Origin: Erysipelotrichales bacterium
Lineage (GTDB): Bacteria > Bacillota_I > Bacilli_A > Erysipelotrichales > Erysipelotrichaceae
Length of the DNA stretch: 46,825 nucleotides
Direction of reading: 5' to 3'
Assembly (NCBI GenBank): GCA_017532345.1
Contig: JAFXJJ010000011.1
Coordinates: 1 to 46,825, forward strand
Position numbers and translations under genes: made by a program
Notes under the pieces: model-generated
Told to the model about the DNA's origin: nothing
Database searches by the model: none
What the model saw: only the letters and a program-made list of their open reading frames with translations
Shown here: one piece after another, positions 21,289-23,912 of the stretch
How the letters are laid out: each line of letters begins with the position of its first letter
Position numbering within the stretch: position 1 is the stretch's first letter

Positions 21289-21327
21289 AAAAACTGTGGT
21301 GTAAATATAATTACATCACAGTTTTAT
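21289..21327 (+). terminator. Bidirectional terminator
   Basis: AAAAACTGTGGTGTAA pairs with TTACATCACAGTTTT (one bulge or mismatch) around ATATAA. It lies between the convergent GyrI-like and lipoprotein genes and overlaps the stop of the latter. Confidence 0.8.
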
Positions 21328-22115
21328 TCTACATAATAATCTACTTCTATTTCTTCACTATATTGATATTCACTATACTTTTGTCTAGTTAAGAATATCT
21401 CTTGGGTAGTACTTTGACCTTCCCTTTGAATTTGTAGCTTCACTTTAGTTCCTGCCTCACCGCATAGCCAAGATGATGGTTCGTCATAGTTACTATTCAT
21501 TTCAGATACTGGTGTATCATTTATTGTATATATCTTATCACCTGCTACCATATCCATGACATAGGCAACACTGCCCTCATAAACTGTAGTAACTAATAAA
21601 TACTGCATATCTTCAGCAATACTATATTCGATACCTATTTGCGCTTCAGTAAACTTCTCGTTTAGCGCTGCTTCCTCAGTATTATGGTAAACATAGATAT
21701 ATACAATTTCATTGTCTTCAATCACAAATTCATAATAATATTTCTCATCAATAGATACTTTATAAATATCCTTATATATATGATTAGTCAGTGAAGTTTC
21801 TAATATCTTTACGTATTCACTAGCACCATCAATAATCGTATTATCATTAAACCTAGTATCTACCTCTAATAAATAATATAAATGACTATTTACATCATCA
21901 GCTCTCCCTAGTGCTACTTCAGCATAATTAGAATCGTAGAAAATCTTCGCATTCTCATTTAATAATGTATTCAATAAATCAATATCTTTATTATTAATTG
22001 CAGTTACAAAGTTAGTAACATATTCATCATATGTTTCATATTCTACTTTTTTCTTTTGCACACTACAGCCACATAAAAATAGGCATAATAATAGCAGTAA
22101 TATCTTTCTCTTCAT
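21324..22115 (-). CDS. Lipoprotein with PDZ-like C-terminal domain
   Basis: 263 residues. A short lipoprotein signal peptide MKRKILLLLLCLFLCGC ends at Cys17. Residues about 25-150 look like an NTF2/SnoaL-type alpha-beta domain (YVTNFVTAINNKDIDLLNTL). The C-terminal part has a PDZ-like core: YLLVTTVYEGSVAYVMDMVA, then GDKIYTINDTPVSEM, then GTKVKLQIQREGQ. No protease domain is present, so it may be an adaptor at the cell surface. It is 39 bases downstream of the Spo0A-like gene on the same strand, so they may be co-transcribed. Confidence 0.75.
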   Translation of the reverse strand: MKRKILLLLLCLFLCGCSVQKKKVEYETYDEYVTNFVTAINNKDIDLLNTLLNENAKIFYDSNYAEVALGRADDVNSHLYYLLEVDTRFNDNTIIDGASEYVKILETSLTNHIYKDIYKVSIDEKYYYEFVIEDNEIVYIYVYHNTEEAALNEKFTEAQIGIEYSIAEDMQYLLVTTVYEGSVAYVMDMVAGDKIYTINDTPVSEMNSNYDEPSSWLCGEAGTKVKLQIQREGQSTTQEIFLTRQKYSEYQYSEEIEVDYYVE

Positions 22116-22154: not shown

Positions 22155-22889
22155 TTAACAATCTAATTTCAATCTGTTCGCAACCATCGCGATAAATTCA
22201 GAGTTTGTTGGTTTCGCTTTATTAGCATCGATTGTATAGCCAAAATAATCATCGAATACATCTACATTGCCACGATTATACGCTGTTTCTATCGCATGTC
22301 TAATCGAACGTTCTACTCTTGATGTTGTTGTATTGTAGTAGTTTGCGACATTCGGATACAGCATCTTTGTGATTTTCTCTAAATTTGCTGAATCATCAAT
22401 ACTAACAACTATCGCTGTTCTTAAATAAGAGTAACCTCTTAAATTAGCTGGTACGCCTAAATCTTTTAAAGCATCAGCAGCCATTCGTTCTAGCTTAATC
22501 CATTTCTTAGATTCTTCATACTCTTCATCATATAAATCATCTAGCCTTCGTAATAAGCAATCAAATCTTAATGGTTGGAATAATAAATAGTCAATCTTAT
22601 ATTTCATAACACTATTTACTACCCCTTGGCAATGGCAACTAGCCACCAAGATACTCTTCACATCTTTAAGTGTGTTATCTCTTACTAATTGGATCATATC
22701 AATTCCATCATAACCTGGTCGTGATGCAGATGCGATTACGATATCCACGCGGTTCATCTTCGCATATTCAATAGCTTCTGCCTCAGTTTCAATATATGGT
22801 AATAAGTAGTAATCTCTACTATTTCTTAATTCTTTCTCTAATTCATCGTATGTATATTTGTCATCAAAAAACAAAATTCCTTTTCTCAT
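22155..22889 (-). CDS. spo0A: Spo0A-type response regulator with degenerate receiver
   Basis: 244 residues from the ATG at 22889; the upstream ATG at 22907 contains the SD GGAGG within its first codons and is rejected. The C-terminal Spo0A DNA-binding domain is nearly canonical: LRGYSYLRTAIV, TTTSRVERSIRHAIE (recognition helix) and AKPTNSEFIAMVANRL. The N-terminal receiver keeps the acidic pair Asp9-Asp10. In the phosphorylation motif, however, VDIVIASASRPGYDG has Ser54 where Bacillus Spo0A has Asp56, the Thr position is Ala83, and the Lys of the KPF motif is Gln105 (LLFQPL). It is therefore unlikely to be activated by phosphotransfer in the known way. In Bacillus Spo0A is the master switch of sporulation. 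A second Spo0A-like gene is divergent at 23066. Confidence 0.88.
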   Translation of the reverse strand: MRKGILFFDDKYTYDELEKELRNSRDYYLLPYIETEAEAIEYAKMNRVDIVIASASRPGYDGIDMIQLVRDNTLKDVKSILVASCHCQGVVNSVMKYKIDYLLFQPLRFDCLLRRLDDLYDEEYEESKKWIKLERMAADALKDLGVPANLRGYSYLRTAIVVSIDDSANLEKITKMLYPNVANYYNTTTSRVERSIRHAIETAYNRGNVDVFDDYFGYTIDANKAKPTNSEFIAMVANRLKLDC

Positions 22890-22992
22890 TCTTTCCCGTT
22901 CCTCCATTTACGACTTCACTAGTATACATCTACAACAGTGTTTTTAACTTTTTTGAGTGGTATTTAACTTGTGATGTCGTGTATTTTAAATC

Positions 22993-23001
22993 TCCGACAA
23001 A
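22993..23001 (-). promoter_or_regulatory. Candidate 0A box between the two Spo0A-type genes
   Basis: The minus strand reads TTTGTCGGA, one mismatch to the Spo0A box core TTTGTCGAA, within the 176-bp divergent intergenic region. It could allow cross- or autoregulation; one near-match is weak evidence alone. Confidence 0.35.
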
Positions 23002-23065
23002 TGATATAGTTAAGATTTACAGAAAATGGCATTATTACTATAATATTGGCAGGAGGAGTAGTAAA

Positions 23066-23800
23066 ATGGGCATTATTAATAATTTATATATAATATTAAA
23101 TGGTTACAAATATAAGGAAAATTTCATCAAACTTGTTACAAAGATACACCTTTTTCACATTATCATCATTGATTACGATACTTTAATTGATTCTATTGAA
23201 GAACTATCAAATAATGATTTAGTATTATTTTTCATCGAAAATGAGGAACAACTTGAGGAATTCATCGACTTTTTAGATATATCTTTAACTTTTCCATCCA
23301 TTTTCCTCTATGCTCCAAGCTTCAACTTGTATACAAGTAAAGAGAAGCATATCCACCATCTTCCTGAGTGTTCTTCTCCAGTTGAAATCCTTCATCATAT
23401 GGAGCCAAGCATTCGTCAATTCAAGAAACCATCGCGATTAAAGATAACGGTAGATCAATATATGGAAGAAGTCTTAGAACATATTGGAGCTGCTAGACAC
23501 CTATCTGGATATAAATATTTGAAATTTATCTTAAACTACGCCTTAAAGCACTTCTATCTTGAGAAAGACTTATTCCAAGCTGCCTGTAATGCATGTGTAG
23601 GTCACTTTGAGGTAAGTGAAAGCAGCTTAGAAAAAGCCTTGCGTGATTTAATTGATTATGCCTATACTAATAATTATTATTCATCATACTTATTCTTACT
23701 ACACTACAATATGCTGTATCATAAATCAACTAATACTAAATATATAGAAGCAGCCATGGATTATACTATTAATCATTTTAAAGATGCGGTAACTGAGTAA
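23066..23800 (+). CDS. Divergent Spo0A paralogue with non-receiver N-terminal domain
   Basis: 244 residues from the ATG at 23066, which has a strong SD AGGAGGAG; a longer frame from 22796 runs through the neighbouring spo0A gene and is rejected. The C-terminal half aligns with Spo0A_C: VDQYMEEVLEHIGAARHLSG, YKYLKFILNYALKHFY, then VSESSLEKALRDLIDYAYTN at the place of the recognition helix, although this helix has lost the Arg-Val-Glu-Arg-x-x-Arg-His pattern. The N-terminal half has receiver-like length (IIIIDYDTLIDSIEEL, IFLYAPS) but none of the phosphorylation residues. It resembles a decayed or repurposed Spo0A partner, possibly modulating the canonical DNA-binding protein encoded next door. 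Confidence 0.8.
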   Translation: MGIINNLYIILNGYKYKENFIKLVTKIHLFHIIIIDYDTLIDSIEELSNNDLVLFFIENEEQLEEFIDFLDISLTFPSIFLYAPSFNLYTSKEKHIHHLPECSSPVEILHHMEPSIRQFKKPSRLKITVDQYMEEVLEHIGAARHLSGYKYLKFILNYALKHFYLEKDLFQAACNACVGHFEVSESSLEKALRDLIDYAYTNNYYSSYLFLLHYNMLYHKSTNTKYIEAAMDYTINHFKDAVTE

Positions 23801-23835: not shown

Positions 23836-23912
23836 TGGCGCGCCAAACAGGACTTGAACCCGCAACCTTTTGAACCGGAATCAAATGCTCTATCCAGTTG
23901 AGCTATTGGCGC
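23836..23912 (-). tRNA. tRNA-Arg (anticodon CCG)
   Basis: A 77-base cloverleaf on the minus strand: acceptor GCGCCAA / TTGGCGC, D-arm GCTC/GAGC, anticodon stem TTTGA / TCAAA around TTCCGGT (anticodon CCG, reading CGG), T-loop TTCAAGT, discriminator G and encoded CCA at 23836-23838. Confidence 0.95.

Follow-up and report, generated by a model that had tools for sequence, protein, structure and literature searches.

A head-to-head pair of Spo0A-like genes

The window, meaning the whole 46,825-nucleotide stretch of DNA that was analysed, lies on contig C67 of an Erysipelotrichaceae MAG (2.1 Mb, 124 contigs, 89% complete). Two of its genes, designated P1 and P2, are transcribed away from each other and encode proteins related to Spo0A (Table 1). 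A GGAGG sequence lies 11 nt 5' of the second ATG of the P1 frame (22889) and no similar site precedes the first, so P1 probably starts at 22889 and is more likely to be 244 aa long. The P2 frame opens at 22796, the stretch before 23066 is non-coding by codon usage, and the ATG at 23066 has AGGAGG 9 nt upstream. For both genes the codon-usage score exceeds that of all other five frames. The original prediction called P2 a decayed partner of P1. Taken to mean a pseudogene, this description was not supported, because P2 has its own promoter-like site, ribosome-binding site and coding signal; it is a divergent gene, degenerate in sequence only. A TscT toxin match of the 334-aa frame that begins at 22796 was rejected, as part of it falls in the non-coding extension and its score is below the cut-off.

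Table 1. Positions of P1, P2 and associated features in the window, and of the loci used for comparison (L numbers, with positions within each locus)
Feature	Position	Strand	Description
P1	22155..22889	-	Spo0A paralogue, pseudo-receiver and near-canonical Spo0A DNA-binding domain
P1 open reading frame	22155-22907	-	250 aa from first ATG
P1 Spo0A_C DNA-binding domain	22158..22480	-	helix TTTSRVERSIRHAIETAY
P2	23066..23800	+	divergent Spo0A-like protein: receiver-like N-domain and Spo0A_C-like domain with degenerate recognition helix
P2 ribosome-binding site	23051..23056	+	AGGAGG
P2 promoter-like site	23016..23044	+	TTTACA-17-TATAAT, 11/12 matches; consensus match only
Shared intergenic region of P1/P2	22890..23065		about 160-176 bp
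TGTCG core	22975..22979	+	partly like the Spo0A (0A) box (TGTCGTG); post hoc, suggestive only
TGTCGGA	22993..22999	-	one mismatch to 0A box TGTCGAA; expectation for such sites, 0.36 per 176 bp
PDZ-domain lipoprotein gene	21324-22115	-	39 bp downstream of P1
tRNA-Arg (ccg)	23836-23912	-	directly past P2
lepA-X-spo0A2-hemW loci	L034-L049, L051, L052, L112-L122, L126, L132		spore-forming Erysipelotrichaceae
X gene of the lepA region	L034:3628-4551	+	homologues also found
X gene of the lepA region	L087:4965-5864	-	homologues also found
Thomasclavelia cocleata Spo0A	L129:5518-6354
Pseudo-receiver loci of family f19	L204:4925-5695, L205:4186-4965, L206:1090-1878, L207:525-1286
Tail-to-tail Spo0A pair of an f2 genome	L203:4478-6137
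Clostridia head-to-head pairs	L138:752-2202, L141:4575-6402, L146:4411-6321
Receiver-less Spo0A_C proteins	L208:5682-6083, L209, L210:5393-6356, L211-L216, L139, L147		bacterial contigs, some as tandem pairs

The neighbours of P1 and P2 are chromosomal housekeeping genes. The gene for the PDZ-domain lipoprotein is on the same strand as P1, and the two are possibly co-transcribed as one operon. The tRNA-Arg gene, which stands between P2 and secG-rnr, is a possible integration site, and no element was seen there. A phage origin of the pair was considered and rejected, as the genes around it are chromosomal. The proteins also do not belong to the phage-type class of truncated Spo0A, as both have an N-terminal domain.

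The region between the genes contains two TGTCG cores where 0.07 would be expected per 176 bp, for a core that was picked post hoc. Because of that choice, the cores only suggest feedback from Spo0A. The 0A-like sites between P1 and P2 are weak, and exact 0A boxes over the whole window occur at chance number (3 versus 3.3 expected).

P1 keeps the Spo0A DNA-binding domain and lacks the phospho-acceptor

The C-terminal domain of P1 matched Spo0A_C at about 132-134 bits (131.8 bits with E 1.1e-38; Pfam cut-off 25 bits). When P1 was compared with solved Spo0A DNA-binding domains, the residues aligned to B. subtilis R211, E213 and R214, which we take to be the base-contact residues of Spo0A, were found to be retained, and D258, presumably a positive-control residue, is replaced by N. 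The match of the N-terminal domain to Response_reg was weak and under the Pfam cut-off (E 2.8e-5), and the whole protein scored 174.9 bits against TIGR02875 (spore_0_A), which does not reach the equivalog cut-off of 200. Alignment to intact Spo0As of the family showed that the acidic pair is kept (D10/D11 are D/D) and that D56 is S, T84 is V (or A if the gap is moved by one residue) and K106 is Q. This bears out the original prediction of a near-perfect DNA-binding domain without an acceptor, and, judging from the alignment, phosphorylation of P1 at the position of the Spo0A aspartate is not possible. Since neither the acceptor nor the equivalog score of Spo0A was found, P1 and P2 are classed here as pseudo-receiver paralogues of Spo0A and not as Spo0A itself.

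The structural model of P1 (mean pLDDT 86.6) has a complete receiver fold followed by Spo0A_C. The receiver consists of five strands and five helices, so that the (beta-alpha)5 fold is kept, and the model domains match the solved structures 1fc3/1lq1 and the receivers of VicR and Spo0A (5wq0). Its conserved DNA-binding domain suggests that P1 most likely binds 0A boxes. However, an unphosphorylated Spo0A receiver normally inhibits its DNA-binding domain, and P1 could therefore be largely inactive.

A complete receiver fold with its acidic pair is more than a constitutive protein would need, D56S is not phosphomimetic, and the putative positive-control residue is Asn in P1. These features make it rather unlikely that P1 works on its own as a constitutively active Spo0A, whose receiver no longer inhibits and which would activate or repress 0A-box genes at any time when it is made, with P2 as a separate regulator that has its own targets. 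The near-canonical DNA-binding domain would be in keeping with such a protein, as would the receiver-less Spo0A_C proteins found in many genomes of the family, and gut phages carry receiver-less Spo0A proteins that are thought to bypass host signals (PMC10294663).

P2 is a highly divergent relative

P2 matched Spo0A_C at 35.3-37.9 bits (37.9 bits with E 2.6e-9; Pfam cut-off 25). Its recognition helix is not conserved, reading VSESSLEKALRDLIDYAY as against TTASRVERAIRHAIEVAW, with S at the position of R211. No receiver family matched the N-terminal domain in family-profile searches, and the acceptor and other receiver residues cannot be placed by dependable alignment, which agrees with the earlier description of P2 as a protein of Spo0A_C shape with a degenerate recognition helix and no recognisable receiver residues. 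The P2 model (mean pLDDT 79.9) has an alpha/beta N-terminal domain, with pLDDT of about 57-79 and receiver matches weaker than those of P1, and a confident Spo0A_C domain. P2 sits on a branch of length 8 in the tree, with a best identity of 22% over the tree columns, so any kinship past the Spo0A_C fold is tentative. The idea that P2 is a relocated copy of the lepA-linked spo0A2 described below was set aside, as it is not demonstrable with so long a branch.

Spo0A and sporulation genes elsewhere in the host genome

A search of the host genome for a third spo0A found one on contig C98 (147 bits). It encodes a Spo0A that keeps D56 and K106; S/A stands in place of the acidic pair and G/C in place of T84. 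The principal Spo0A of a sister species has S/I for the acidic pair and M/C at T84, and the two proteins group together (100/95 support) inside the principal group of the family. None of the three Spo0A-type proteins found in the host has a complete receiver active site; P1 and the C98 Spo0A hold complementary halves of one. A fourth Spo0A is possible in the missing 11% of the assembly. Near a lysS-like gene, the sister species also encodes another Spo0A, whose receiver is almost complete (D-A, D, T, K). The existence of the C98 protein, even with its acidic pair and Thr84 lost, argues against the proposal that P1 is a replacement for the master regulator.

The host genome carries spoIIAA-spoIIAB-sigF, spoIIGA-sigE-sigG, a sigK-like gene and a SpoIIP-like gene, identified by gene order and sequence reading and, for the sigma factors, also by TIGR02885 matches. 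Upstream of the spoIIA operon lie TGTCGAA and TGTCGCA, as would be expected of a Spo0A target. SpoIVA was not found in the 89% complete host assembly and is present in the sister species. The search for SpoIIE_N was uninformative, as none of the four genomes searched matched and two of them have SpoIVA. The original prediction had also raised reuse of Spo0A in a non-sporulating lineage. This fits poorly with the presence of sigE, sigF, sigG and a sigK-like gene and with the finding that carriers of second paralogues mostly have SpoIVA, though SpoIVA was not found in the host MAG.

Conservation of the pair in relatives, which was also proposed as a check, was not observed. In the one genome of the same genus, that of the sister species, the exact pair did not turn up, so its conservation by descent was rejected; a search of the genome contigs with P1 alone found no relative, and no orthologue was found for either P1 or P2. 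The dN/dS evidence given below therefore comes from paralogues in relatives and not from P1 and P2. A further spo0A exists and the exact pair was not found in the sister species, both of which count in part against the original prediction, while its central point, that no Asp occupies the acceptor position of P1, stood.

Some of these results could be explained if P1 and P2 were functionless remnants of a spo0A duplication, left under relaxed selection in one lineage that is losing sporulation. SpoIVA was not found in the host assembly, the acidic pair and Thr84 have eroded in the principal Spo0A on C98 as well, the pair was not found in the sister species, and P2 is extremely divergent. However, both reading frames are intact and carry a coding signal, the DNA-binding helix of P1 is preserved, sigF, sigE, sigG and a sigK-like gene are present, and the sister species has SpoIVA despite the same erosion of its principal Spo0A. 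Together with the purifying selection on comparable paralogues described in the next section, this suggests that the two genes are improbable as relics.

Second Spo0A paralogues in the Erysipelotrichaceae

Spo0A_C was found in 52 of 196 genomes of the family, and a principal Spo0A (>140 bits) in 36 genomes of the Erysipelotrichaceae sample, 32 of which gave a strong SpoIVA match. Among these 36, a second match lay in a frame of >200 aa, counted as a receiver-bearing paralogue, in 27, only a shorter second match was present in 6 and there was none in 3. The second paralogue usually lies at lepA-X-gene-hemW, with synteny in most cases. The X gene, which encodes roughly 300 aa, belongs to no Pfam family and most often stands ahead of the second spo0A; at times it occurs without spo0A2.

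A complete active site was found in none of the 23 tabulated Erysipelotrichaceae second paralogues, and the recognition helix TTSSRVEKxIRxAI is kept in most of them. Where dS could be estimated, dN/dS was 0.09-0.24 for the second paralogue versus 0.01-0.07 for the principal Spo0A. The second paralogues evolve faster and yet are clearly constrained, by purifying selection. A profile built from the second copies aligns with Spo0A over its full length, Spo0A receivers included. Principal and second-paralogue groups are split in the tree (98/97 support), and P1 branches outside both without firm support, so any transfer of function from the lepA-linked paralogues to P1 is by analogy only.

These data also bear on whether, in P1 and the lepA-linked paralogues, a ligand or a partner protein takes the place of phosphate as the signal that the pseudo-receiver reads, and in this way sets DNA binding. 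Several pseudo-receivers are known to bind small molecules (PMC12632262), and purifying selection acts on the N-terminal domains of the second paralogues in relatives (dN/dS 0.09-0.35). However, no ligand site was identified, and in most pairs the N-terminal domains diverge faster than the C-terminal ones, unlike what a conserved pocket would show. Sensing of this kind is considered unlikely.

Some further variants were seen. Loci L065-L070 (genera g8, g25 and g36) come from genomes with no SpoIVA and have one Spo0A-like protein each with acidic pair, D56 and K106. In these proteins T84 is replaced by L or S and the DNA-binding domain is divergent; they are possible cases of Spo0A reuse outside sporulation. 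In Thomasclavelia cocleata and in the principal copy of an f2 genome the acidic pair is T/E or E/E, and the Thomasclavelia cocleata Spo0A has K106 replaced by A.

Spo0A-like proteins in other lineages and viruses

Similar arrangements occur outside the Erysipelotrichaceae. In three genera of family f19, a second Spo0A with Lys at the acceptor position is flanked by a lemA-type gene and tpiA. One of these genomes has a further Spo0A copy in which D56 is Asn and K106 is Leu. The f2 genome has its two Spo0A genes tail to tail, and its principal copy combines the E/E acidic pair with Q at K106. The Clostridia MAGs L138, L141 and L146 carry a Spo0A gene head to head with a degenerate Spo0A-like gene, an arrangement that resembles P1/P2. 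In a phylum-wide sample of 295 genomes, more than one Spo0A_C match was found in 10 of the 43 genomes that had any, which suggests that the habit is patchy outside the Erysipelotrichaceae.

Receiver-less Spo0A_C proteins were seen on a number of bacterial contigs (Table 1), and one of their genes, at L208, adjoins tmRNA, smpB and rnr. The viral collection gave 58 loci (L217-L274) with Spo0A_C relatives, mostly with the DNA-binding domain only; a few match part of the receiver.

Interpretation

The reading that we prefer, with a probability of about 0.5, is that P1 and P2 are working, phosphorylation-independent Spo0A paralogues that modulate the Spo0A regulon as competitors or mixed-dimer partners, and that they exemplify a wider habit of spore-forming Erysipelotrichaceae, in which a fast-evolving pseudo-receiver Spo0A is kept beside the principal one. 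It draws together the residue losses, the preserved DNA-binding domain of P1, the receiver fold seen in the P1 model and more weakly in that of P2, the real reading frames of both genes, and the recurrence and selection of such paralogues in relatives. Control without a phosphorelay, whether by protein level, partner binding or ligand, was anticipated by the original prediction and would still be the best class of explanation, given that the acceptor of P1 is gone, the site in P2 is unrecognisable and phosphate-dead paralogues are under selection in relatives.

In the proposed mechanism, P1 would occupy 0A boxes, to which its preserved DNA-binding domain points, and its effect would be set by its amount and not by a kinase, since with phosphorylation at D56 impossible the level of P1 must matter. 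The eroded helix of P2, in which the key Arg is lost, points to protein contacts, and P2 would act mainly by forming mixed dimers, its partner being P1 or the principal Spo0A encoded on C98. Together, P1 and P2 could raise, lower or redirect the expression of Spo0A targets, and they may share this function with the lepA-linked paralogues. A bolder proposal is that entry into sporulation in the host lineage has moved off phosphorylation, the ratio and mixed dimers of the three Spo0As making the decision, and that in most sporulating Erysipelotrichaceae a pseudo-receiver Spo0A serves as a dedicated second control over the master regulator. This extension seems doubtful.

Spo0A is usually regarded as one phosphorylation-gated switch, and finding it in a genome is taken as part of the evidence for a spore former (PMC8340488, PMC11536998). 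If the preferred reading is right, a conserved phosphate-blind second Spo0A would be an unrecognised layer of sporulation control in a family of gut spore formers and a natural system in which to study how pseudo-receivers work, and counts of Spo0A homologues would be no measure of sporulation ability. It would also offer a testable handle on the sporulation decision of Erysipelotrichaceae in the gut.

Comparison with known systems

A phosphate-blind extra Spo0A, kept by most spore-forming relatives, appears to be previously undescribed. A full-text search for "Spo0A paralog" found no paper and the titles and abstracts searched described no second, phosphate-dead Spo0A; subscription papers were outside the coverage of both searches, so this absence is weak evidence. 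A 2025 review of pseudo-receivers makes no mention of Spo0A (PMC12632262), and in a survey of aspartate-less receivers Spo0A appears only in the form of cited constitutive mutants (PMC4395418), so that neither source, where searched for Spo0A, describes a Spo0A-type member.

Compared with Spo0A itself (TIGR02875; 1lq1, 1fc3), P1 has the same order of receiver and then Spo0A_C, P2 has a receiver-like domain ahead of its Spo0A_C domain, and the DNA-binding domain of P1 is about 50% identical with its base-contact residues kept. They differ in that P1 lacks the acceptor Asp, Thr84 and Lys106 and falls below the TIGR02875 cut-off, and P2 lacks recognisable receiver residues and R211. The truncated Spo0A proteins of gut phages, which have already been published (PMC10294663), resemble P1 in that a Spo0A DNA-binding domain is freed from phosphorylation control, but the phage forms have no receiver, whereas P1 and P2 carry a receiver-like domain and are surrounded by housekeeping genes of the chromosome.

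Two pairs of regulators offer parallels. In Clostridioides difficile, CmrR and CmrT formed heterodimers in pull-downs (PMC12548384), and as with P1 and P2 a pseudo-receiver regulator is encoded beside a related regulator; unlike P1 and P2, they are OmpR-type proteins of the same operon, and the receiver of CmrR is intact. BldM and WhiI are atypical regulators that form a functional heterodimer gating sporulation in Streptomyces (PMC4125116). They belong to another DNA-binding family and another phylum, and the heterodimer that has been shown for them is only proposed for P1 and P2. As paired atypical response regulators in sporulation, however, BldM and WhiI may serve, by analogy, as the working model for P1 and P2.
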